Below are positions 39,277 to 50,059 of a stretch of 64,000 nucleotides of DNA, piece by piece (position 1 is the first letter of the stretch; the number at the start of each line of letters is the position of its first letter). The DNA lies in the NCBI RefSeq assembly GCF_900240285.1, contig NZ_OESS01000001.1:1426001-1490000 (forward strand). The letters run 5' to 3'. The position numbers and the translations under genes are program-made. The DNA is from Halobacillus sp. Marseille-P3879 (lineage in GTDB: Bacteria > Bacillota > Bacilli > Bacillales > Halobacillaceae). The notes under the pieces are model-generated. The model was not told the DNA's origin. It ran no database searches and worked only from the letters and a program-made list of their open reading frames with translations.

Positions 39277-40032
39277 ATACCTTAATCTCATTAACAGCTT
39301 CTTAATCTCTTCATCTTCAAGGAGAGTTTTTTCATATTTTTTTGTAATAGTAGTTAAAGCTACATCGTGCTGAAAGAACTCAATAAAGAATTTAACGAGA
39401 GGTTTTGCCTTCGTAGTTATACCCTGCCATAAGTCTTGTTCGACACCAGCAAAAATTATTTCTTCTTCATCAATAATGACAAGTTGATACTGTTCTAACG
39501 CTTCGTGCTTTTCATTTGGATGTAAGACGTGCAAGTTTGGAAGTTCGGTTTCTAAAGCACCGACTGAAAGGATCTCAACTTCCACTCCTTTATCCTTTTT
39601 AGTTTCTAGGGTTTTTAGAACAGATTTTAAGTCATGATTCCAACCAGATAATTGGATAGAACTTTCAGCCTCCAGAAGCTTATCATTCATTAACGAGTCA
39701 ATGCTTTGTTTGTTTTGTAAGGTCCATACACGTTCATCACCGGGCGGCAAAGAATATTTTTTTTCTTTCAATTCCTGAATATGGGATTCAAATTCTAATG
39801 TTAACTTTTCAATTGTTATCTCAAGGGGAAGGGCACGATAAAGCTTCTTATTTTTTTGAAAAGAAGTCAGGAGGAGTCCTTTTTCAACCAATCGATTTAA
39901 CACTTCATAAACCTTCGACTTGGGAACACCAGAATACTTAACAATCGAAGTGGCGTCTAATGGTTCAGGACTGCTCGTTAAGGCTTCAAATACTTGACTT
40001 TCGTACTGCGTAAATCCAAATTTTTGTAACAT
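39274..40032 (-). CDS. TrmB-family transcriptional regulator
   Basis: This 252-residue regulator has an N-terminal winged helix (FGFTQYESQVFEALTSSPEP, then VPKSKVYEVLNRLVEKGLL; about 4-60), a coiled-coil linker (about 75-95) and a PLD-like effector domain from about 105 (ESSIQLSGWNHDLKSVLKTL; VEVEIL), the TrmB architecture of sugar-responsive regulators. It is divergent from an MFS exporter gene, and a GGTTACC inverted repeat sits between them, so it probably controls that exporter. The ligand is unknown. Confidence 0.85.
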   Translation of the reverse strand: MLQKFGFTQYESQVFEALTSSPEPLDATSIVKYSGVPKSKVYEVLNRLVEKGLLLTSFQKNKKLYRALPLEITIEKLTLEFESHIQELKEKKYSLPPGDERVWTLQNKQSIDSLMNDKLLEAESSIQLSGWNHDLKSVLKTLETKKDKGVEVEILSVGALETELPNLHVLHPNEKHEALEQYQLVIIDEEEIIFAGVEQDLWQGITTKAKPLVKFFIEFFQHDVALTTITKKYEKTLLEDEEIKKLLMRLRY

Positions 40033-40119
40033 AAATCCTTCCTTCCTTTCCGTCTTCTCTTGTATTCAGCATACCGTAAATTTTCTTTTCGTAAAATGGT
40101 TGTCTTTTTCTGTTTATAA

Positions 40120-40141
40120 GGTTACCCTTGTAGTGGTAACC
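40120..40141 (+). promoter_or_regulatory. Inverted repeat operator candidate between trmB-like and MFS genes
   Basis: GGTTACC (40120-40126) and GGTAACC (40135-40141) form a perfect 7-bp dyad with an 8-bp spacer, 20 bp before the MFS start and about 90 bp from the regulator start. Position and symmetry fit a binding site for the divergently encoded TrmB-family protein. Confidence 0.55.
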
Positions 40142-40161
40142 CTATAAAAAGGAGGAAGAGA

Positions 40162-41328
40162 ATGAATAAAAAAGTTTATATGTTAGCGGTTGTGTCTTTT
40201 GTTGTGGGGACGGTTGAACTCATAATTGGCGGTACACTGGATTTAGTTGCGAATGATTTGGGTGTCAGCATCGGACAGGCTGGTTTATTAATTACTATAT
40301 TTTCACTGGTATTTGCCATCGCATCGCCTATTCTATTAACCATGACCGCGAATATCGAAAGAAAAAAATTAACTTTGATATCACTGTTCGTCTTCTTCTT
40401 AGGTAATCTGCTTGCTTTCTGGAGTCCCACATACTCTGTAATATTATTAGCCAGAATCATATCAGCAGCAAGTGGATCTCTTCTCGTAGTCCTTGGAATT
40501 ACAATTGCTTCATCCATCGTCCAAAAAGAATTTCAGGCCCGCGCCATCGGCATTATTTATATGGGAATCAGTGGTTCCTTAGTACTTGGTGTACCCATTG
40601 GTCTTACTTTAAGTAATGCTTTTGGCTGGCGCTCGCCTTTTTTATTAGTTGCTGTTCTTACAGTGGCTTCAATGATAGGTGTTACGTTCTTATTAGAGAA
40701 AATAGAACCTAAACCTGCTCTGCCTGTAAAACAGCAAATTCGCACATTAAAAAACAGTAAAGTATTCTCGGCCCAGCTTACTTCATTTCTATTTCTTACC
40801 GGGCATTTAACTTTGTATGCTTATTTAACACCTTTTTTAAAAACAATGCTAGGGCTCAATGGAACGTGGGTTAGTATTGTATATTTCATATTCGGCGTGG
40901 CGGCCGTATCGGGTGGAGGGATTGGTGGTTTAATATCAGACAAATGGGGAAGAGAGCGCAGTATTTTAGCGATAATTGGATCTTTTGCTGCTGCTATTTT
41001 TCTTATTCCGTTTGTAACCTTCTCTTTTCCTTTGTTTTTAATCGTTATGGTGGTATGGAGTATGTTAAGCTGGGCTATTACCCCTGCTCAACAGAGCTAT
41101 CTTATTGCATCTGCACCAGAAACTTCTGACATACAGCAAAGTTTGAATAATTCAGCGCTTCATTTTGGAATTGCCATGGGGTCAACAGTGGGAGCGGTAG
41201 TCATTGAACAATCCTCAGTCATTCACAATGCTTCCATTGGAGGTTTGTTTGTATTGCTCGCGTTAGGTACGGCTTATTTCTCAATCACTCGAACCCAGGA
41301 ATCTCTGGCTGCTGAGAATGCAGGTTGA
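40162..41328 (+). CDS. MFS transporter, DHA1/AraJ-like efflux type
   Basis: This 388-residue, 12-segment major facilitator protein has the family loop motif GGGIGGLISDKWGRERS (between TM8 and TM9), the N-half QAGLLITIFSLVFAIASPIL and GVPIGLTLSNAFGWRSPF (TM5 antiporter-like region). The arrangement resembles sugar- or drug-efflux transporters of the DHA1 group. The start follows AAAAGGAGGAAGAG. It is divergent from the TrmB regulator. Substrate unknown; sugar efflux is a possibility because TrmB regulators often sense sugars. Confidence 0.85.
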   Translation: MNKKVYMLAVVSFVVGTVELIIGGTLDLVANDLGVSIGQAGLLITIFSLVFAIASPILLTMTANIERKKLTLISLFVFFLGNLLAFWSPTYSVILLARIISAASGSLLVVLGITIASSIVQKEFQARAIGIIYMGISGSLVLGVPIGLTLSNAFGWRSPFLLVAVLTVASMIGVTFLLEKIEPKPALPVKQQIRTLKNSKVFSAQLTSFLFLTGHLTLYAYLTPFLKTMLGLNGTWVSIVYFIFGVAAVSGGGIGGLISDKWGRERSILAIIGSFAAAIFLIPFVTFSFPLFLIVMVVWSMLSWAITPAQQSYLIASAPETSDIQQSLNNSALHFGIAMGSTVGAVVIEQSSVIHNASIGGLFVLLALGTAYFSITRTQESLAAENAG

Positions 41329-41476
41329 AAACAAACAGGGTTACTCTTTGTATAAAAGGGCGATCCTGTTTTTTATTTAACAAATTCTTCATGAAAGGTC
41401 TATCGTTTACAGCGGATAAGTAATCTTCTCCTTTATGATAAAATAAATGACAAGGACATTTTTGAGGAGGGATTAA

Positions 41477-42091
41477 ATGTTTAAGAAAATGGCAACCGAT
41501 GCTTTAGGTTTAAGTGATATAGGTAGTGTGATTTCTCCTGAAGACTATGACAAAGTGGATGCAGACGATTATGTAATGCATGAGGATGGAGAGAAAATTT
41601 ATTTTTTAATTAAATCTAAAGCTGATGAGTACTGCTTTACAAATAAGGCGCTCATTCACGTTGATGGCACAAGTGCCACCAGTAAAAAACGTACATTGAG
41701 AAGATACCCTTACTATACTCATACGTTTTCAAGTATCGAATTAGAGACGGCAGGCACGATCGATTTAGATGTTGAAATAAAATTTAATCTAGGCAGTGAA
41801 GAATTTGATATTGATGTGCATAAGAAGTTTATTGAGGAAGTTAAAGATCTGTATAAATCACTTCTGAAAATCGCCGAAATTTCTGAAGAGAACCAGGTGT
41901 TTACGGAATATGCAAATCAAAGTCTGAATACAGCTTCAGTAACCCTTCAAAACAGCCGTACCCATGAAACACGCCTTTCTCACGAATTCAGGGATATTAA
42001 TGAGACGACGTTTAATTGGTTGTTGGAAGCGAAAAACCAATACCATATAAAAGATTTCGGTCATGTATTTGAATTATTTATAAAGAATTAA
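41477..42091 (+). CDS. PH-domain protein of the YvbH-like family
   Basis: This 204-residue soluble protein has a bacterial pleckstrin-homology-like beta domain (about 20-125; IYFLIKSKADEYCFTNKALIHVDG, TSKKRTLRRYPYYTHTFS, ETAGTIDLDVEIKFNLG by position) followed by a helical YvbH-extension (about 130-204). The family is found in Bacillus with unknown function. Ribosome binding site GAGGAGGG precedes ATG. Single gene, followed by a terminator. Confidence 0.75.
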   Translation: MFKKMATDALGLSDIGSVISPEDYDKVDADDYVMHEDGEKIYFLIKSKADEYCFTNKALIHVDGTSATSKKRTLRRYPYYTHTFSSIELETAGTIDLDVEIKFNLGSEEFDIDVHKKFIEEVKDLYKSLLKIAEISEENQVFTEYANQSLNTASVTLQNSRTHETRLSHEFRDINETTFNWLLEAKNQYHIKDFGHVFELFIKN

Positions 42092-42133
42092 GCAGGAAAA
42101 AAGGGGCTTAAAAAGCCTTATAAAAGTAAAGGG

Positions 42134-42171
42134 AAACCCACAGAGAAGTAAAACTTTCTGTGGGTTTTTTT
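42134..42171 (+). terminator. Intrinsic terminator after the YvbH-like gene
   Basis: AAACCCACAGA(GA)AGT / ACTTTCTGTGGGTTT stem followed by TTTTTT. Confidence 0.85.
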
Positions 42172-42280
42172 AAGTTTAAAAATCCCTCCGTTTGAATAAC
42201 TGGAGTAAAATTTGCTTCGAAAGAATAAGAACTATTTAATGACAAATCATAGTAAAGAAAAATACAGAAGGAGGGTAACC

Positions 42281-42475
42281 ATGGGCAGAGATGAGCATAA
42301 GAAATCAAACGCCAGAAAACAGCAAAAATTATCTCAAACACCTAAGCGTGAAAAACATGATGGATTAGATGTAGAATTCTCTCAGGATATGGCTGACCAT
42401 GATGACATGGAAGCAATGAAACGCAGCGAAGCAGCTGACCGTCGTGCCAATCACGAACAAAAAAGAAGACGTTAA
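42281..42475 (+). CDS. YfhD-family small protein
   Basis: This 64-residue, highly charged, disordered protein has the YfhD layout: an N-terminal MGRDEHKKSNARKQQKLSQTPK, then DGLDVEFSQDMAD, and the repeated Ala/Arg region EAADRRANHEQKRRR. ATG 42281 is preceded by AGAAGGAGGG. YfhD is a short Bacillus protein of unknown function, often found in sporulating species. It is monocistronic. Confidence 0.7.
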   Translation: MGRDEHKKSNARKQQKLSQTPKREKHDGLDVEFSQDMADHDDMEAMKRSEAADRRANHEQKRRR

Positions 42476-42483
42476 GAAATAAA

Positions 42484-42758
42484 CCAGGCTGAAACAAAAA
42501 TGAATAAATCATAAAATAATCCGAATGATTCTGTAGAAATCAGTTCGGATTATTTATGTTAAAGAGAATTCACACCATTGCTCCGTTAAAATACTCCGCT
42601 TTTAAGTGGGCACGGCCTTAAGCAAAGAACGCTTTCCTGAGGCATCTTCCGCTCGATCTATTCCCACAGGAGTCTACGTATTTTGACTACGCGGATGATC
42701 TGCGTTTATAAGAAAGTTCGTTTTTTGACATCACTGCTTTACTTATGTCGCAGTCCTG
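42484..42758 (-). repeat. Copy C of the dispersed ~275-bp repeat (inverted relative to copy B)
   Basis: On the minus strand this segment aligns end to end with 34728-35002. The hairpin-bearing end is AATCCGAA...TTCGGATT (about 42518-42557 on the plus strand). The outer ends AGGCTGAAACAAAAA (42486-42500) and CGACATAAGT...(complement of 42741-42758, CAGGACTGCGACATAAG on the minus strand) form imperfect terminal inverted repeats. It fills the gap between the YfhD-like gene and the betaine-binding protein gene. Confidence 0.85.
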
Positions 42759-42894
42759 TTTTCTATAAGAAGAATATTCAGTTTCATTTTTTTGTACAGT
42801 TTAAATTGTTTTAACTTTCGACAATTTATGATATACTTCGTAACTGTGTTGAAAAATCATTGTAATATTCAAAAAAGTAGAGGGGGAAATACTT

Positions 42895-43785
42895 ATGCAA
42901 CGTGTACGTAAATGGCTTCCAGCTGTTTTATTAGGTTCTTCTTTAGTGCTAGCAGCATGTGGAAACGATTCTGACTCAGATTCATCAGGTGACGGTGGCG
43001 GAGAATCTTCAGGGAGCAAGGAAGTAAGTATTGGGATGAACAACTGGGCTGAAAACATTGCAGTCTCCAACATGTGGAAAATTGTTCTTGAAGAAGAAGG
43101 ATATGATGTAGAACTTGAGCAAGTTGAAAAAGGCGTATTATACGAAGCCCTGTCTGAAGGAGACCTTGATATCGGTATGGAAATATGGCTTCCAAATACG
43201 GATGCATCTTTCTACGAAGAATATGAAGAAGAAATTGACTGGCGTGAAACTTGGTATGAAGGAACAGAGTTGGGTCTCGTTGTACCTTCTTATATGGAAG
43301 ATATTAATTCAATTGAAGACTTAAACGATCACGTGGATGAATTTGACGGACAAATTGTTGGGATTGATTCTGGAGCAAGTATTATGTCTCTTACAGATGA
43401 TGCAATTGAAGAGTATGATCTTGACTACACATTAGCTGCCTCGTCTGAAGGTTCAATGATGACGGAATTGACAGGGGCAGTTGAAAACGAAGATCCAATT
43501 GTGGTTACCCACTGGACTCCGCACTGGGCATTCTCAGAAATGGACCTTAAGTTCTTAGAAGATCCGGAGAATGTTTATGGCGACTCGGAGGATATATCTT
43601 ATGCAGCCAGACTAGATCTTGAGGAAGATAACCCTGAACTCGTTGAAATGTTTGATAAGTTCATGTTGGATGATCAACAGTTAGGAGAACTTATGTCTTC
43701 CATAAATGAAGCAGATTCAGAAGAAGAAGGTGCTCAAGCGTGGGTTGACGAGAATCAGGATGTCATTGATGAATGGATAGAATAA
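42895..43785 (+). CDS. Glycine betaine/proline ABC transporter substrate-binding lipoprotein (orphan)
   Basis: This 296-residue lipoprotein has a signal peptide ending in the lipobox LAAC (Cys22), then a Ser/Asp/Gly-rich linker and an OpuAC-type domain. Betaine-cage tryptophan motifs are visible: MNNWAEN, MEIWLPN, VVTHWTPHWAF. The mature protein is extremely acidic, typical for surface proteins of halophiles. No permease or ATPase gene is adjacent, so it must serve a transporter encoded elsewhere. Ribosome binding site AGAGGGGG precedes ATG. It is preceded by repeat copy C. Confidence 0.9.
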   Translation: MQRVRKWLPAVLLGSSLVLAACGNDSDSDSSGDGGGESSGSKEVSIGMNNWAENIAVSNMWKIVLEEEGYDVELEQVEKGVLYEALSEGDLDIGMEIWLPNTDASFYEEYEEEIDWRETWYEGTELGLVVPSYMEDINSIEDLNDHVDEFDGQIVGIDSGASIMSLTDDAIEEYDLDYTLAASSEGSMMTELTGAVENEDPIVVTHWTPHWAFSEMDLKFLEDPENVYGDSEDISYAARLDLEEDNPELVEMFDKFMLDDQQLGELMSSINEADSEEEGAQAWVDENQDVIDEWIE

Positions 43786-43804
43786 AATTTGTAGAAAACA
43801 GTCT

Positions 43805-43838
43805 GCCCTTATAAGCAGGCTGTTTTTTAATGTCTGGA
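43805..43838 (+). terminator. Intrinsic terminator after the betaine-binding protein gene
   Basis: AACAGTCTGC / GCAGGCTGTT stem with an AT-rich loop followed by TTTTTT. Confidence 0.85.
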
Positions 43839-43953
43839 AATAGGAGAGGCAAGACAAGTGAAAAAGCAAAGAGAGAATGAAGTTTAACATCACTCCGTAG
43901 AGGAAACATAGTAACTAGAACAGATAAAGCAGAAAAAGGAGTCGATGTAGTTT

Positions 43954-44766
43954 ATGGATTTAAATAAGGAAATTAAGAAACTAGAGAATATACATTTAGA
44001 AAAGCCTCAGCAAGTGTTCACTATGTACTTGAACACAGATCCTTCTGACCCTGAGCAGCAAGGAGGAGAATGGAAGATCCATTTAAAGAACGGCTTAAAT
44101 AATTTTGAAGCCTATCTAAAGGAAGACGGTGATTCAGAAGAAAAAAGAAACTTTTGGGCCGTCAAAGAGAAAGTCCAGACTTTCATTGAAGAAAATGAAC
44201 AGAACTTTGCTAAAAGTGCAGTAGTGATTGCGTCTGCTGATGATACCGTTTGGTTTGCGGAACGGTTTCAGATGCCAGTAGAAAGTGAGTTTTATTGGGA
44301 ATCTGAGCCGGTACTTGATCAATTAAAACAAATGCGTGAAAAATTTCCAAAAACAGGAATTATTTTAACTCAAAAAAACCAAATTAAATGTATTGATGCT
44401 AATCTAGGAATGGTTAACGATACTCAACTATTTGAATTAGATTTAGATACTGAAGATTGGAGACAGCATCAAGGGCCCCACCGTGCGGATGCTTCCATGG
44501 GATCTGGCGGAGCTAAAAATACGAAACAGGATCAATTTCAAGAGCGCTTTGAAGCCAACCGCTACCGCTGGTACAAGAGTGTAGCACCGAAATTAGATAA
44601 GCTCGCAAAGGATAACGAATGGGAGCGGATTTATATGGTGGGAGATAAAGAAGAGCTTAAAGACTTAGAAGACAACATGAACAAACAGGTGGACGACTTT
44701 GTGAATAAGAATTTATTGGACCATGAAGAGACTAAAGTGGTAAACGAGATTGTCCAACATTTATAA
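43954..44766 (+). CDS. Bacterial eRF1-like (baeRF/VLRF1-type) protein, tentative
   Basis: This 270-residue soluble protein starts with QQVFTMYLNTDPSDPEQQGG, a segment typical of bacterial proteins related to archaeal/eukaryotic release factor aeRF1. The central part has AVVIASADDTVWFAERFQMP and GIILTQKNQIKCIDANLGMV (an actin-like/RNase H-type beta block), followed by MGSGGAKNTKQDQFQERFEA at about 183-202, where a release factor GGQ loop would be, and a C-terminal ribosomal-L7Ae-like end. Such proteins are thought to rescue ribosomes or cleave tRNA. The GGQ itself is absent (GGA). ATG 43954 follows AAAAAGGAG. Confidence 0.6.
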   Translation: MDLNKEIKKLENIHLEKPQQVFTMYLNTDPSDPEQQGGEWKIHLKNGLNNFEAYLKEDGDSEEKRNFWAVKEKVQTFIEENEQNFAKSAVVIASADDTVWFAERFQMPVESEFYWESEPVLDQLKQMREKFPKTGIILTQKNQIKCIDANLGMVNDTQLFELDLDTEDWRQHQGPHRADASMGSGGAKNTKQDQFQERFEANRYRWYKSVAPKLDKLAKDNEWERIYMVGDKEELKDLEDNMNKQVDDFVNKNLLDHEETKVVNEIVQHL

Positions 44767-44783
44767 AAATATATTAAAATAAT

Positions 44784-44814
44784 AAAAGGGCTGAACAAGA
44801 GTTCAGCCCTTTTA
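44784..44814 (+). terminator. Intrinsic terminator
   Basis: AAAAGGGCTGAAC / GTTCAGCCCTTTT perfect stem with a 5-nt loop. Confidence 0.9.
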
Positions 44815-44927
44815 TAGTGGTTTTATCAAATCCTTCTATGTTAAGTGGATGGCTGCAGGTTATCACCTGATCCAACAATATGATAGAATAATATTCAGTA
44901 GAAATTAACGAAGAGGAGCTTTAAGCT

Positions 44928-45233
44928 ATGTATGTTGTAGATTCAACTGTTGTGGTACCTGATCATAAAGCAGATGAGTTAATTTCCATTTATCAAAATC
45001 GGTCCCGGCTGGTTGATGGAGCAGATGGATTTTTATCCTTTCAATTACTGCAGAACGAACGAAAACCAGGAGAGTTAACTGTCCATATGGAATGGAAAGA
45101 TAAATCATATTATTTAAATTGGGCCCGCAGTGAACAGTTCAAGAAAATTCACGAATTAGAAAAGAACTACCCGGATCAGGAATTGCAAGGGATCGTACCT
45201 CATGTAAAAAAATATGAGGTAGTGGCCCAGTGA
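44928..45233 (+). CDS. Antibiotic biosynthesis monooxygenase/heme-degrading monooxygenase-like protein (HmoA-like)
   Basis: This 101-residue dimeric ferredoxin-like ABM-fold protein resembles Bacillus HmoA/HmoB and IsdG: the opening YVVDSTVVVPDHKADELISIYQNRSRLVDGADGFLSFQLL (about 2-41 by position), the W in MEWKDKSYYLNWARSEQFKKIHE and the conserved His at about 79 that can bind heme iron. It may degrade heme or act on a quinone-like molecule. AGAGGAG precedes ATG. Its stop overlaps the GTG start of the next gene, making it the first gene of a four-gene operon with the B12/STAS proteins. Confidence 0.75.
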   Translation: MYVVDSTVVVPDHKADELISIYQNRSRLVDGADGFLSFQLLQNERKPGELTVHMEWKDKSYYLNWARSEQFKKIHELEKNYPDQELQGIVPHVKKYEVVAQ

Positions 45234-45586
45234 ACCCTAATGAAAGAGACACATTAGTTGATCAGGTCGTAACGGAAATATATGATGCTTACCCCTGGCT
45301 GTGGGCTGAGTTTGGCCAGCACGGCCGTGAACGGACTAAAGAAGACAACTATCATCATATTGATCATTTATATACTGCTTACGAAATGAAAAGCGCTGTC
45401 TTTTTTATAGATTATACCTTGTGGCTGCAAAATGTCTTAACATCTCGTGGTATAGGCAATAAATTAATAATTGATAATTATGAACGGCTGATTCAAAATC
45501 TGGAGATGATGGAATGGGAATCTAAAGCAGAAAAGCATTCATTCGTTCATCATTTGAAACTGGCGCTTGGAAGTCTTCGTGACTGA
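45230..45586 (+). CDS. Small helical protein upstream of the B12-binding gene, unknown
   Basis: This 118-residue soluble protein is predicted all-helical. It carries a His-rich segment YHHIDHLYTAYEMK (about 41-54) and FIDYTLWLQNVLTSRGIG (about 58-75). Such W...HH..H...F.dY..Wl..vL.sRG patterns occur, to my memory, in front of the B12-binding domain in some fused bacterial proteins, so this may be a split-off sensor domain; this is tentative. It starts with GTG overlapping the previous stop (GTGA), and ends 21 nt before the next start. Confidence 0.6.
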   Translation: MNPNERDTLVDQVVTEIYDAYPWLWAEFGQHGRERTKEDNYHHIDHLYTAYEMKSAVFFIDYTLWLQNVLTSRGIGNKLIIDNYERLIQNLEMMEWESKAEKHSFVHHLKLALGSLRD

Positions 45587-45607
45587 TAGCAATTAGGGGT
45601 GAAATCT

Positions 45608-46267
45608 TTGACGCAGCATCATGAAAAATTAGCTCACTATTTCTTAGATGGTGATGAGGAGAAAGCTTTGACTTATATAGAGGACCGGTTGTTAAACCAT
45701 CCAAGGCTTTATCTTTATGAGGATATTATCACCCCCGCGATGTATTATATAGGAGAACTTTGGGAGAACAATGAGATCTCTGTGGCTGATGAGCATCTTG
45801 CTACTGCAATTTGTGATTTTGTTTTATCAAAGATAGATGCCGAAGCAACTTATATTCGTGGGGATCATCAGAAGAGTTTTAAAGCTATTTTATTTGGAGT
45901 AGAAAAAGAACAACATTATATAGGATTGAAAATGGTGGCTGATTCATTTAAGGAACAAGGGTGGAGAGTGCGTTACTTAGGGCCGGATCTGGGTATGGAA
46001 CACTCTCTTACTCAAATTCACCGCTATAAGCCGCACGTCATTGGAGTATCTGCAGCTCTTTCTTATCGTCTCCCCACTTTAAAAAAACTTGTGCAGAAAT
46101 TCTGTTCACTGGAATGGAAACCTTTAATTATGATTGGAGGAAGAATGGCGAGGAAATTTGATCTAAAAGAATTTGAGTCTGATCAGGTTATAATTATTAA
46201 GGATCTAAATCATTTAAATAAATGGTTTATGGATGGAAGGGCAGGAGTAGTTAATGAAACAAGCTGA
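45608..46267 (+). CDS. Stand-alone cobalamin (B12)-binding sensor protein with CarH-type cap
   Basis: This 219-residue protein has a helical cap domain (about 1-85) followed by a Rossmann-type B12-binding domain. The cap carries W52-x9-E62-H63 (ELWENNEISVADEHLATAI), the motif that packs over adenosylcobalamin in CarH/LitR photoreceptors. The lower-ligand motif is E-x-H-x-x-G (EKEQHYIG, His103) with Glu for the usual Asp, then SAALS and IGGR for the tail. No DNA-binding domain is attached. TTG 45608 is preferred because AGGGGTG lies 6-7 nt upstream; a GTG at 45599 lacks a site. It overlaps the STAS gene by 14 nt. Confidence 0.82.
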   Translation: MTQHHEKLAHYFLDGDEEKALTYIEDRLLNHPRLYLYEDIITPAMYYIGELWENNEISVADEHLATAICDFVLSKIDAEATYIRGDHQKSFKAILFGVEKEQHYIGLKMVADSFKEQGWRVRYLGPDLGMEHSLTQIHRYKPHVIGVSAALSYRLPTLKKLVQKFCSLEWKPLIMIGGRMARKFDLKEFESDQVIIIKDLNHLNKWFMDGRAGVVNETS

Positions 46268-47015
46268 CCGAACTCTCCCGCTCCCTTTCTACAAGATTAA
46301 CAAAAACTTTACCGTCCAGGCTTATTCAGAAGAGGCTATGAAACTCGGGAAGATCCCAGAAAACCTCTTGGAGATTATAGATGATGGAAGCGTGGAAAAA
46401 GTTAAGAAATGGGTATCATCTGATATCTATAAATCAGTCCTGGAAATTCATCTGAAACCTTTAGAAGAACAAGCTGATCCGATAACAGCGGATATGTATG
46501 TCGTATGGAATAACGACTTGTATGCAGAAGTTATTCTTATGATAAAAGATGAAAAGCTGATACAGGTAACTAATAGGTTATCTCAACTTCGCTCGCGGCT
46601 GAATGAAACCAACTTTGAATTACTCGAAGAAAAAGAAAAGCTTGAAGAAGCCATTGAACAAAATAATAGGCTTTCCGCCCCTTTTATTGAACTAACTAAA
46701 GATACAGCTTTAGTACCTTTGTTCGGAGATTTAACTTCAGATAAAATGCAAGCAGTAGAAGACTACTTGTTAAAGGCTTCCCAAAAAGAGGAGATCGACC
46801 AATTGTTATTTGATTTTACTGCAGTTGGTGAGATAAACAGAGAGGGTATTTATATGCTGGTCAACCTGATAACCTCACTATTTTATATGGGCATAGAGAT
46901 TATCATCACTGGAGTAAGGCCTAAACAGGCTAAAATGCTGCACGAGCTTAATCTTCCTCTTCAAGTAAGCTTTATTCATTCCCTGCAACAAGCAATTGCC
47001 AAATATTGTACGTAA
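46254..47015 (+). CDS. PAS-like/STAS domain protein (RsbR-type, stressosome-like)
   Basis: This 253-residue protein has an N-terminal PAS-like segment (about 8-100; FYKINKNFTVQAYSEEAMKL), a coiled coil (about 103-137; SQLRSRLNETNFELLEEKEK) and a C-terminal STAS domain (about 140-253; LLFDFTAVGEINREGIYMLV, IIITGVRPKQAKML). This is the order of RsbR paralogues that build the stressosome with RsbS and RsbT. The site that in RsbR usually carries D-T(-S) is N-R here, so phosphorylation may differ. It is translationally coupled to the B12-binding protein, which suggests that protein controls it. Confidence 0.8.
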   Translation: MKQADRTLPLPFYKINKNFTVQAYSEEAMKLGKIPENLLEIIDDGSVEKVKKWVSSDIYKSVLEIHLKPLEEQADPITADMYVVWNNDLYAEVILMIKDEKLIQVTNRLSQLRSRLNETNFELLEEKEKLEEAIEQNNRLSAPFIELTKDTALVPLFGDLTSDKMQAVEDYLLKASQKEEIDQLLFDFTAVGEINREGIYMLVNLITSLFYMGIEIIITGVRPKQAKMLHELNLPLQVSFIHSLQQAIAKYCT

Positions 47016-47045
47016 ACCGGCTCACAATCTGAGCCGGTTTTTTTA
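47014..47045 (+). terminator. Intrinsic terminator of the B12/STAS operon
   Basis: AAACCGGCTC / GAGCCGGTTT with an 8-nt loop followed by TTTT. Confidence 0.9.
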
Positions 47046-47075
47046 GTGCGAAGCAGAATAGTTTCATTTTATACG

Positions 47076-47087
47076 ATACCCGGGTAT
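47076..47087 (+). promoter_or_regulatory. Candidate CsoR operator
   Basis: ATACCCGGGTAT is a perfect 12-bp palindrome followed by AGTATATATAAG, about 40 bp before csoR. CsoR sites are GC-centred dyads of the TACCC...GGGTA type, so autoregulation of csoR-copA-copZ by copper is likely. Confidence 0.7.
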
Positions 47088-47128
47088 AGTATATATAAGA
47101 AATACATCGAAAAGGATGGGAGTTACCA

Positions 47129-47440
47129 ATGAGTCAATTACCTGACCACAGTGGAAAGCAGCCAGTAAAGAAAAGAACGGAGGATGAGAAAACCCAGGTT
47201 ATTAATCGCCTAAGGAGGATAGAAGGCCAGGTAAGAGGTATACAAAGCATGATTGAAGAGGATAGATATTGTGTAGACGTTTTAGTTCAGCTTTCTGCCA
47301 TCGATTCAGCTTTAAAAAAGGTTGGTTATTCTCTCATGGAAAGACATGCGAAGCATTGTGTAAGCGATGCTGTCCGCTCTGGTAATGGGGAAGAGGCAAT
47401 GGATGAATTAATTAAAGTAATGAAGCAATTCAGTAAATAA
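47129..47440 (+). CDS. csoR: Copper-sensing transcriptional repressor CsoR
   Basis: This 103-residue four-helix DUF156/CsoR protein releases DNA upon Cu(I) binding. The three copper ligands are in place: Cys in DRYCVDVL (about 51), and His and Cys in [10 protein letters not shown] (about 76-80). The conserved [20 protein letters not shown] helix contacts DNA and the tetramer interface. It is the first gene of csoR-copA-copZ, 14 nt before copA, and a palindromic operator lies upstream. Confidence 0.95.
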
Positions 47441-47454
47441 GGAGTGAATCGAAT

Positions 47455-49833
47455 ATGAGGCAGCAATTATCACTTCCTATTGAAGGAATGACATGCTCTG
47501 CGTGTTCCTCACGGATTGAGAACGCATTAAACAAACAAGAAGGACTCACAGCTGCTGTTAATTTAACTTTAGAAAGGGCCAGTGTAACTTATGACGATCA
47601 ACAAACGAACTTAAGTGATATTGTAAATCAGATAGAACAAATGGGTTATAATGTTCCTTCACAGAAAAAGGAATTTAGGATTTCAGGAATGACTTGCGCA
47701 GCGTGCTCTACCCGAATTGAAAAAGTTCTTCAGAAAACGGATGGTATTGATACAGCTTCAGTTAACCTCACAAATGAAACTGCAGCGGTTACCTATAAAG
47801 AAGGGATTATTGATGTAAATACGATTATTGATACAGTTCACCAACTTGGCTATGAAGCGAAGGAGCGTGAAAGTGAGGAGATATCGGGTAAAAGAAAAGA
47901 AAAGGAATTATCTCATAAAAAGAACTATGTGATTATCTCTTCAATTCTTTCGTTTCCTTTACTCCTTACAATGCTTGATCACCTGCTGCAAATAGATGTG
48001 CCGATGATTCTTATGAATCCCTGGGTGCAATTTGCATTAGCGACCCCTGTGCAATTTGTGATGGGGTGGCAGTTTTATCGCGGGGCCTATCATACGTTAA
48101 AAAACAAAAGTGCTAATATGGATGTTTTAGTAGCCCTGGGTACAAGTGCTGCCTATTTTTATAGTTTAACTGAAGCGATTCGAAGCAGTACTGGCGGAAA
48201 CGGAGAAATTCATCTGTATTTTGAGACAAGTGCAATTCTTATCACACTAGTTCTACTTGGTAAGTATTTCGAAACTAGAGCCAAAGGCCGTACAACTCAA
48301 GCTTTGTCCGCTCTTCTAAATTTACAGGCAAAAGAAGCAAGAGTACTGCGAGACGGAAAAGAAACAACTATTCCACTTCAGGAGGTTGAAGTAGAGGACA
48401 TTGTTATAGTTAAACCTGGTGAAAAAATTCCGGTAGATGGAATGGTACTCAGTGGGGAAACTTATGTTGACGAGTCTATGGTGACGGGAGAATCAATTCC
48501 AGTTTCTAAGAAACAGGGGGAAGAAGTCATTGGTGCAACATTAAATAAAAATGGCTCGATTCAAATGAAAGCAACTAAAGTAGGTAAAGATACGGCTTTA
48601 GCTTCAATTGTAAGAATTGTAGAAGAAGCTCAGGCTTCCAAAGCCCCTATTCAGCGCATGGCTGATGTAATATCAGGTTATTTTGTCCCGGTTGTTGTAG
48701 CCGTTTCCGTGTTGACATTTCTCGTTTGGATCAGCTTCATTGATCCTGGAGCGACCACACCTGCCCTGGTAGCAGCTATTGCTGTCCTGGTTATTGCCTG
48801 CCCGTGTGCACTGGGCTTGGCGACCCCAACTTCAATAATGGTTGGAACTGGTAAAGGGGCAGAGCAGGGAATTTTATTTAAGGGTGGAGAACACCTTGAA
48901 AAAGCTCAAGGAGTAGATACAGTAATATTCGATAAAACCGGAACGATAACTAAAGGCAAACCCGAAGTTACAGATTTCACAGGGGATAAAGAAACATTAG
49001 AGTTAGCAGCTAGTGCCGAAAAATTATCAGAACACCCCCTGGCAGAAGCCATTACCGCATATGGTGAATCTTATGGAGTAGAGTTTCATGATGTTAGTCA
49101 ATTTGAGGCGGTTACCGGCCACGGTATAAAAGCAGTAATAGAACAACAATCCGTATTAATTGGGACCAGGAAGTTATTTAATGAGGTAAATGTGGAATAC
49201 AACAAATATGAAAGCCGCATGACTGAATTAGAAAATGAAGGCAAAACCGTAATGCTTATTGGTGTTAATGGTGAAGCTAGAGGTCTAATTGCTGTTATGG
49301 ATACAATTAAAGAATCAGCAAGACCAGCATTACAGCAGCTGAAACAACAAGGAGTTCAGTTAGTACTACTGACGGGAGATAATTGGCGTACAGCACGTTA
49401 CATTGCTGAGCAGGCTGGAATTGATCAAGTAATTGCCGAGGTACTGCCGGAGCAAAAAGCAGAAGAGGTAGAGGATATGCGCAGGAAAGGCCATGTAGTA
49501 GCCATGGTTGGAGATGGAATAAATGATGCCCCTGCATTAGCTGTAAGTGACCTGGGCATCGCTATAGGAACAGGTACAGATGTCGCAATAGAAGCTGCCG
49601 ACGTAACCATTCTTGGTGGAGACTTAAATCTTATCCCAAAGGCTTTTCAACTGAGTCAAAAAACAATGAGGAATATCCGTCAGAATTTGTTTTGGGCTTT
49701 AGCTTATAATACAGCGGGGATTCCTATCGCGGCAATAGGATTACTTGCTCCCTGGATTGCGGGAGCTGCCATGGCCTTTAGTTCAGTTAGTGTGGTATCT
49801 AATTCATTAAGGTTGAAAAAAATAAAATTGTAA
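47455..49833 (+). CDS. copA: Copper-exporting P1B-type ATPase
   Basis: This 792-residue membrane ATPase pumps Cu(I) out. It has two N-terminal metal-binding HMA domains ([12 protein letters not shown] and [12 protein letters not shown]), membrane helices from about 155, the actuator TGES ([11 protein letters not shown]), the CPC metal path ([12 protein letters not shown]), the phosphorylated Asp in [12 protein letters not shown], the SEHPLAEAI His-Pro box, [10 protein letters not shown], and the C-terminal YN...[15 protein letters not shown] helices. All catalytic elements are intact. It sits between csoR and copZ as in B. subtilis. Confidence 0.97.
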
Positions 49834-49852
49834 TAGAAAGGTGAGATTGTTC

Positions 49853-50059
49853 ATGCAATTAACTTTAGAAGTAAACGGAATGAGTTGTGAACATTGTGAA
49901 AAATCAGTAAAAAATTCCTTGAATGCGTTGGAAGGCGTTCATGGTGTGAATGTAGACTTAACAAGTGGAAAAGTTGACGTTACGTTTGATGAGGCATATG
50001 TAACAAAATCAATGATGAAAGAAGCAATCGAAGCCCAGGGATATGAGCCTGTGGGATAA
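49853..50059 (+). CDS. copZ: Copper chaperone CopZ
   Basis: This 68-residue HMA-fold chaperone carries Cu(I) to CopA. The metal loop is GMSCEHCEKSV (Cys12, Cys15), followed by the DLTSGKVDVTFDE strand pair and EAIEAQGYEPVG end. ATG 49853 follows AAAGGTGAG; the GTG at 49841 overlaps that site. It lies 19 nt after copA and ends the operon. Confidence 0.95.
   Translation: MQLTLEVNGMSCEHCEKSVKNSLNALEGVHGVNVDLTSGKVDVTFDEAYVTKSMMKEAIEAQGYEPVG

Follow-up and report, generated by a model that had tools for sequence, protein, structure and literature searches.

The 64,000-nucleotide stretch of Halobacillus sp. Marseille-P3879 DNA analysed here (the window) comes from a 4.17 Mb genome of the Halobacillus group and carries, at 44928–47015, four overlapping genes that form one unit between two terminator-like hairpins. 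As detailed below, their products resemble the halves of a bilin- and B12 (cobalamin)-based photoreceptor, with a putative tetrapyrrole-handling protein and a stressosome-type STAS protein. The features of the locus are:

44782–44815, + strand: terminator-like hairpin of 15 pairs (pattern match, both strands scored)
44860–44889, + strand: sigma-70-like promoter candidate, TTATCA-18-TAGAAT, with TG before the -10 (pattern match)
44928–45233, + strand: ABM-domain protein, 101 amino acids (aa), IsdG/HmoB-like (Pfam and NCBIfam domain matches, alignment)
45230–45586, + strand: predicted stand-alone photoglobin, 118 aa, five-helix phycobiliprotein type (profile, alignment, model)
45599–46267, + strand: predicted stand-alone CarH/photocobilin-type cobalamin-binding protein (Pfam, PDB matches, alignment)
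46254–47015, + strand: PAS-like/coiled-coil-like/STAS protein, 253 aa (Pfam, PDB profile matches)
47014–47040, + strand: intrinsic terminator of 11 pairs and a T run, immediately behind the STAS gene and closing the unit on its 3′ side (pattern match)

The ABM and globin genes overlap by 4 nucleotides (nt), the B12 and STAS genes by 14 nt. A first-pass annotation had proposed a three-gene unit at 45230–45586, 45599–46267 and 46254–47015. All three genes are real and lie at these positions, and the ABM gene, through its 4-nt overlap, belongs to the unit as a fourth. Transcription from upstream probably terminates at the hairpin at 44782–44815, the 5′ limit of the unit. The promoter candidate is weak: the region holds seven such sites, fewer than the 8.3 expected from shuffled sequence. 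A cobalamin riboswitch or other RNA element was rejected, as an Rfam scan of 40000–50000 returned no match.

The B12 protein is 222 aa long from GTG 45599 and 219 aa from TTG 45608, the latter being the probable start as it fits the Shine-Dalgarno sequence better. Pfam detects both B12 domains (1.2e-14 and 1.5e-14) and nothing else, in particular no MerR-type DNA-binding domain. The best relatives in the Protein Data Bank (PDB) are SasPcob (2e-13), the putative cobalamin-binding protein 8jbs (9e-12), AbPcob (4e-7) and CarH (6e-7), which bears out the earlier proposal of a CarH-class module devoid of a DNA-binding domain. Counted from GTG 45599, its motif reads G52-x-x-W55-x9-E65-H66, followed by the lower-ligand motif E104-x-H106-x-x-G109; the first-pass annotation had rightly recognized both, its W52, E62 and H63 being counted from TTG 45608. 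G52, W55, E65, H66, H106 and G109 are identical in 49/49 rows of alignment A2, which we selected from the retrieved loci. The residue after the Trp is Glu56 in the window protein, Glu in 40 of the 49 rows and His in only two, so that the equivalent of CarH His132, the residue used for the bis-His light state, is indeed missing, as had been claimed. SasPcob, with Gln after the Trp, likewise has no such equivalent. The SignatureFinder criterion for light-responsive cobalamin-binding domains, as excerpted from PMC11796333, consists of four motifs, GxxW, EH, GxxH and GxxxP; the window protein fails two of these and only 17/49 rows carry all four, so such B12 proteins may have been overlooked. His135 (SasPcob His137) was considered as a co-evolving contact and dropped, His being present in 26/49 rows and not discriminating. 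The host genome also holds two PF01923 cobalamin adenosyltransferase genes.

Weak NCBIfam similarity to MtgC, MtaC, MtbC and other corrinoid proteins (6e-8 to 9e-5, none reaching the cut-off), together with the shared fold, would be expected of a corrinoid protein of a methyltransferase system. We give this explanation very little credence and set it aside: the CarH model and the photocobilins score better, W-x9-EH is invariant, and the genes conserved beside it encode a globin and a PAS-like signalling protein (methyltransferase genes were not searched for in relatives).

The gene at 45230–45586 had been described as encoding a helical His-rich protein; the gene is real, and its product is of a known kind by profile, fold and fusion. 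The best PDB matches of its profile are phycocyanin and the bilin domain of the photocobilin SasPcob, and a structure model (pLDDT 96) matches phycobiliproteins, the bilin carriers of cyanobacteria. SasPcob is not among the 50 matches listed for the model, which counts neither way. On sequence and model, we class the 118-aa product as a globin of the phycobiliprotein type ('photoglobin') with predicted bilin binding. The B12 motif is W55 and E65-H66 in the numbering of chain 8j2w, and Trp61 and Glu71-His72 in the SasPcob paper (PMC10979010, here and below in excerpt). This offset of six equates Asp270 of the paper with D264 of the chain and Trp296 with W290. In SasPcob, Asp270 interacts with the A, B and C rings of the bilin and Trp296 touches both chromophores (PMC10979010). 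In the alignment, Asp39 of the window globin corresponds to Asp270 and Trp65 to Trp296, and both residues are identical in 34/34 stand-alone and 6/6 fused globin rows (alignment A1, 34 of 62 globin loci, rows chosen by us). Asp39 also pairs with phycocyanin Asp87 (numbered by counting along the chain), the CxRD residue that binds the bilin. Where phycocyanin has Cys84, the site of covalent bilin attachment, the window globin has Thr36; a Cys occurs there in 11/34 globins (loci L045, L057, L062, L065, L069, L071, L072, L080, L099, L119 and L122), for which covalent attachment is possible.

By domain models the ABM protein is IsdG/HmoB-like. The IsdG catalytic triad comprises Asn7, Trp67 and His77, of which the Asn is called critical (excerpt of PMC6018153). 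The window protein keeps Trp65 and His75 and has Ser6 in place of the Asn, so that the full Asn/Trp/His set of an IsdG-type heme oxygenase is not present. Its relatives have the Trp and His in 27/27 rows and Ser at the Asn position in at least 90% (alignments A3, A4 and A5 hold 27, 40 and 32 rows, all of them subsets chosen by us). Two further ABM proteins are encoded in the host genome, one of them HmoB-like with the Asn kept. A canonical heme oxygenase was rejected as bilin source, PF01126 being found in 0/150 relatives and not in the host genome. Synthesis of an unusual bilin is one possible role of the ABM protein, mere transport of a bilin another.

His42 and His43 of the globin, which are invariant in the 34 stand-alone globins and not in the six fused ones, could possibly contact a different chromophore or heme. 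Together with the retained Trp65 and His75 of the ABM protein, they would suit a sensor of tetrapyrrole, oxygen or redox state instead of light, in which the ABM–globin pair deals with heme or products of its degradation, the supply of B12 or the redox state is sensed by the B12 protein, and the PAS-like–STAS protein receives input from both. We regard this as decidedly unlikely, because in sequence and fold the globin is closest to bilin proteins and not to heme globins, and because W55, E65 and H66 of the adenosine pocket, which are marks of photoreceptors, do not vary.

Across the 150 relatives, 78 have an ortholog of the B12 gene and 72 of these also the globin, while six carry the B12 ortholog only, six the globin only and 66 neither (Fisher 6e-28); outside the family of the host the corresponding numbers are 33, 6, 6 and 61 (Fisher 2e-15), both P values ignoring shared ancestry. 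The ortholog cut-off of E 2.6e-17 is a gap chosen after viewing the scores, some B12-domain match at 1e-3 being present in 136/150. In a wider sample, 14/398 genomes of the phylum had the globin. After removal of duplicates, the gene immediately upstream of the globin is an ABM gene in 69/76 globin loci, with the same 4-nt overlap in 62, and the globin immediately precedes the B12 gene in 56/62 loci holding both, including an interrupted fusion (L100). The six exceptions are either rearranged (L045, L069 and L080) or have an interrupted B12 gene (L053, L099 and L103). These counts left out the duplicates L031–L041, L044 and L047 as well as L106–L118 and L124, and L054, L056, L073, L076 and L077 were replaced by L119–L123. 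At 14 loci the globin is not beside the B12 gene (L125–L138), and ABM still adjoins it in 11, two of them weak, altered matches. The ABM gene is thus linked to the globin gene, and the B12 gene to that of the PAS-like protein.

Fusion of globin and B12 protein occurs at 10 Bacillota loci (L143–L147, L149–L152 and L154), in genomes that we guess to be Paenibacillus-like and clostridia-like. The products measure 352–375 aa, with the globin N-terminal and the B12 match C-terminal, the opposite domain order to SasPcob; at L153, the globin lies in a 202-aa frame that does not match the B12 profile. An ABM gene stands directly upstream of the fusion at L145. Since the same pair is fused elsewhere, the sensor is closer to a photocobilin than to CarH, and this likeness fits the missing His132 equivalent, which photocobilins also lack. 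Several fusions are followed by genes resembling sensor or GGDEF-type proteins. In single genomes (G003, G014, G022, G094 and G126) the B12, globin or ABM genes look interrupted, which may reflect recent loss.

The gene association and Asp39 also bear on whether a bilin is involved at all. A CarH- or photocobilin-like light sensor could work with B12 only, the globin serving as a chromophore-free dimer or docking partner: AbDPcob keeps its globin at ∼20% bilin occupancy (PMC10979010), the relatives lack PF01126, and six genomes have the B12 gene with no detected globin. However, loss of the Asp equivalent to Asp39 weakens bilin binding in AbPcob, and this residue is kept in every stand-alone and fused row; in addition, the IsdG-like gene accompanies the globin at nearly all of its loci. 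We therefore consider a bilin-free sensor unlikely.

The protein encoded at 46254–47015 consists of a PAS-like domain (∼8–112), a coiled-coil-like linker and a C-terminal STAS domain (∼136–250; Pfam 7.4e-9). The best PDB matches of the STAS profile are YtvA (2.9e-19) and RsbR (1e-15), with SpoIIAA behind at 7e-6, which places the domain in the RsbR/YtvA class found behind a sensor domain and linker. At the positions of the phosphorylatable Thr residues of RsbR, which we take to be Thr175 and Thr209 in Listeria, the alignment gives Ser162 and Arg196; YtvA has Glu at the second site. Evidence that the N-terminal domain is PAS-like is weak: PAS_9 matches 4/32 rows (best 4e-5), and of seven weak PDB matches the best is an engineered protein (0.022) and the other six are KCNH1 (from 0.048), presumably covering the N-terminal PAS domain of KCNH1.

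This N-terminal domain is common to 83 open reading frames (ORFs) at the loci, which end in a STAS domain (65), a histidine kinase (6) or a short tail (12). Five of the STAS ORFs (L011, L013, L016, L018 and L062) were assigned by length and sequence of the C-terminus; the HisKA–HATPase output was detected by Pfam at L045, L069 and L096, and L046, L067 and L080 read alike. The conserved link to a YtvA/RsbR-type STAS protein, which the first-pass annotation had put forward, is thus upheld by 65/83 ORFs, with the refinement that a kinase or short protein replaces STAS beside the B12 gene in part of the family. The six kinase-type loci keep the same B12 and PAS-like pair, and at L045, L069 and L080 the ABM–globin pair comes after the kinase gene. 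A quick B12 tree (64 rows, 62 labelled) needs only two changes of output, and frequent swapping was rejected on this ground; beyond the gene-order exclusions, the tree left out 18 close Halobacillus rows, L053, L097–L105 and rows of <150 aa.

The host genome has a sigB gene, near which STAS genes occur whose positions fit rsbV, rsbS and rsbR. In 5/78 genomes with the B12 ortholog, from two genera, 4.7–6.5 kb separate the B12–STAS genes from rsbR–sigB, which follows downstream on the same strand (G062, G088, G125, G105 and G138, the last two without globin). Genes that we read as acpS-, alr- and mazEF-like stand between the operon and rsbR in these five. A SigB-dependent promoter ahead of the operon was rejected, as a SigB-like promoter was found in 0/70 upstream regions of operon loci (shuffle mean 2.25). 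This result and the lineage-specific output domains (STAS, HisKA–HATPase or short tail) would also be compatible with the same sensor feeding a different output, the STAS protein acting in a separate partner-switching route and not in the σB stressosome. Given that the STAS profile ranks YtvA and RsbR first and that rsbR–sigB is close by in two genera, we think such a route quite improbable.

Directly 5′ of the upstream hairpin, 43954–44766 encodes a baeRF family 5 protein with weak likeness to a ribosome-hibernation-factor model. Directly downstream, 47129–50059 encodes a CsoR/RicR-like repressor, then a copper-type P-type ATPase and a small heavy-metal-binding protein; by our reading of the sequence, on which the latter two identities rest, this is an ordinary copper operon.

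Among known systems the photocobilins SasPcob and AbDPcob come closest. They share the CarH-type B12 module with W and EH and no His132 equivalent, and a five-helix bilin-type globin with the same Trp and (in SasPcob) the same Asp. In contrast to these single chains, the Halobacillus globin and B12 protein are encoded by two genes, which stand with an IsdG-like gene and have a PAS-like–STAS partner of their own. We therefore file the sensor as a split relative of the photocobilins, not a strict member, which would be a single polypeptide. In photocobilins, bilin excitation drives cleavage of adenosylcobalamin (AdoCbl), and a STAS/SpoIIE link was predicted for SasPcob from a protein–protein interaction network (Zhang et al., 2024; PMC10979010). 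A photocobilin would further bind AdoCbl and biliverdin, with cleavage of the Co–C bond by green and red light. Separate clustered genes are also found in the BBAG-2 globin and B12-protein clusters, mainly of Myxococcales, which differ in having a bilin reductase (pre-PcyA) alongside, in genomes with a true heme oxygenase (PNAS 2023; excerpt of PMC10151467); the word STAS is absent from the main text of that article.

CarH and LitR (TtCarH; PDB 5c8a, 3whp and 5c8d) share the B12 four-helix and Rossmann module, W-x9-EH and the lower-ligand His, whereas the Halobacillus protein lacks their DNA-binding domain and His132 equivalent, and protein partners replace DNA. The stressosome sensors YtvA and RsbR (2mwg, 6qcm and 7b0u) are the best PDB matches of the STAS protein and have the same linker and STAS domain; unlike theirs, its sensor part is PAS-like with no recognized cofactor, and apparently listens to separate sensor proteins. 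A parallel for this is RsbQ–RsbP-PAS, in which a separate protein signals to a PAS domain with phosphatase, kinase and cyclase outputs, although RsbQ is an alpha/beta hydrolase and no relative of the Halobacillus sensors (PMC3183031, in excerpt).

Among the papers listed in our literature searches, covered mostly at title and abstract level, none reports the four-gene Bacilli operon or a B12 input to the stressosome, part of which Schneider et al. 2022 may show. That work on photoglobin–B12 proteins reportedly establishes the family to which the globin belongs and how it is connected with light-sensing B12 domains. The claim of the first-pass annotation that no characterized system is built this way must be narrowed, since photocobilins have been characterized (PMC10979010) and globin and B12 gene clusters reported in Myxococcales (PMC10151467). 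Photocobilins, photoglobins and such clusters are thus already known, and it is the split, stress-linked form that looks new.

Collectively, the two sensor families, their key residues, the fusion elsewhere, the gene order and the YtvA/RsbR-class STAS domain, as read from sequence and model, lead us to favour, with slightly more confidence than doubt, a split photocobilin that feeds the stressosome; what we infer is the binding of cofactors, a response to light, docking on the PAS-like domain, an output through σB and the role of the ABM protein. The B12 protein would bind AdoCbl base-off/His-on via H106, with W55 and E65-H66 holding the adenosyl group. The globin would bind, via Asp39, a linear tetrapyrrole that the ABM protein may supply, modify or hand over, and would dock on the B12 protein so that Trp65 comes to lie between the two chromophores. 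The Co–C bond would be broken by green light directly or by red light through the bilin, the globin extending a green-light B12 sensor to red by analogy with photocobilins (PMC10979010). Bond breakage would alter the B12–globin assembly, a change that the PAS-like domain of the STAS protein may read, as modelled on the proposed signal from RsbQ to RsbP-PAS (PMC3183031). The STAS protein would sit in stressosomes like YtvA and alter the release of RsbT, and hence σB activity.

Light is well established to reach the stressosome through the LOV protein YtvA. In B. subtilis, σB is activated by red light (excerpt of PMC3019169), and a receptor pairing bilin with B12 would offer a concrete candidate for the red-light input in relatives carrying the operon. 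If true, this would join the field of B12 and bilin photoreceptors with that of the stressosome. Because globin and B12 protein are naturally separate, they would provide optogenetics with a part made of two components. The exchange of outputs behind a single PAS-like adaptor would illustrate how sensors are re-plugged, and the ABM–globin pair raises the question of whether an IsdG-like enzyme can make the chromophore of a photoreceptor. In its widest form, which we advance tentatively and with more doubt than confidence, a two-protein receptor using AdoCbl and a bilin from an IsdG-type enzyme, in place of a canonical heme oxygenase, may give non-photosynthetic Bacilli green-to-red control of the stressosome and σB, and through the shared PAS-like adaptor the same receptor may drive a histidine kinase in other lineages.
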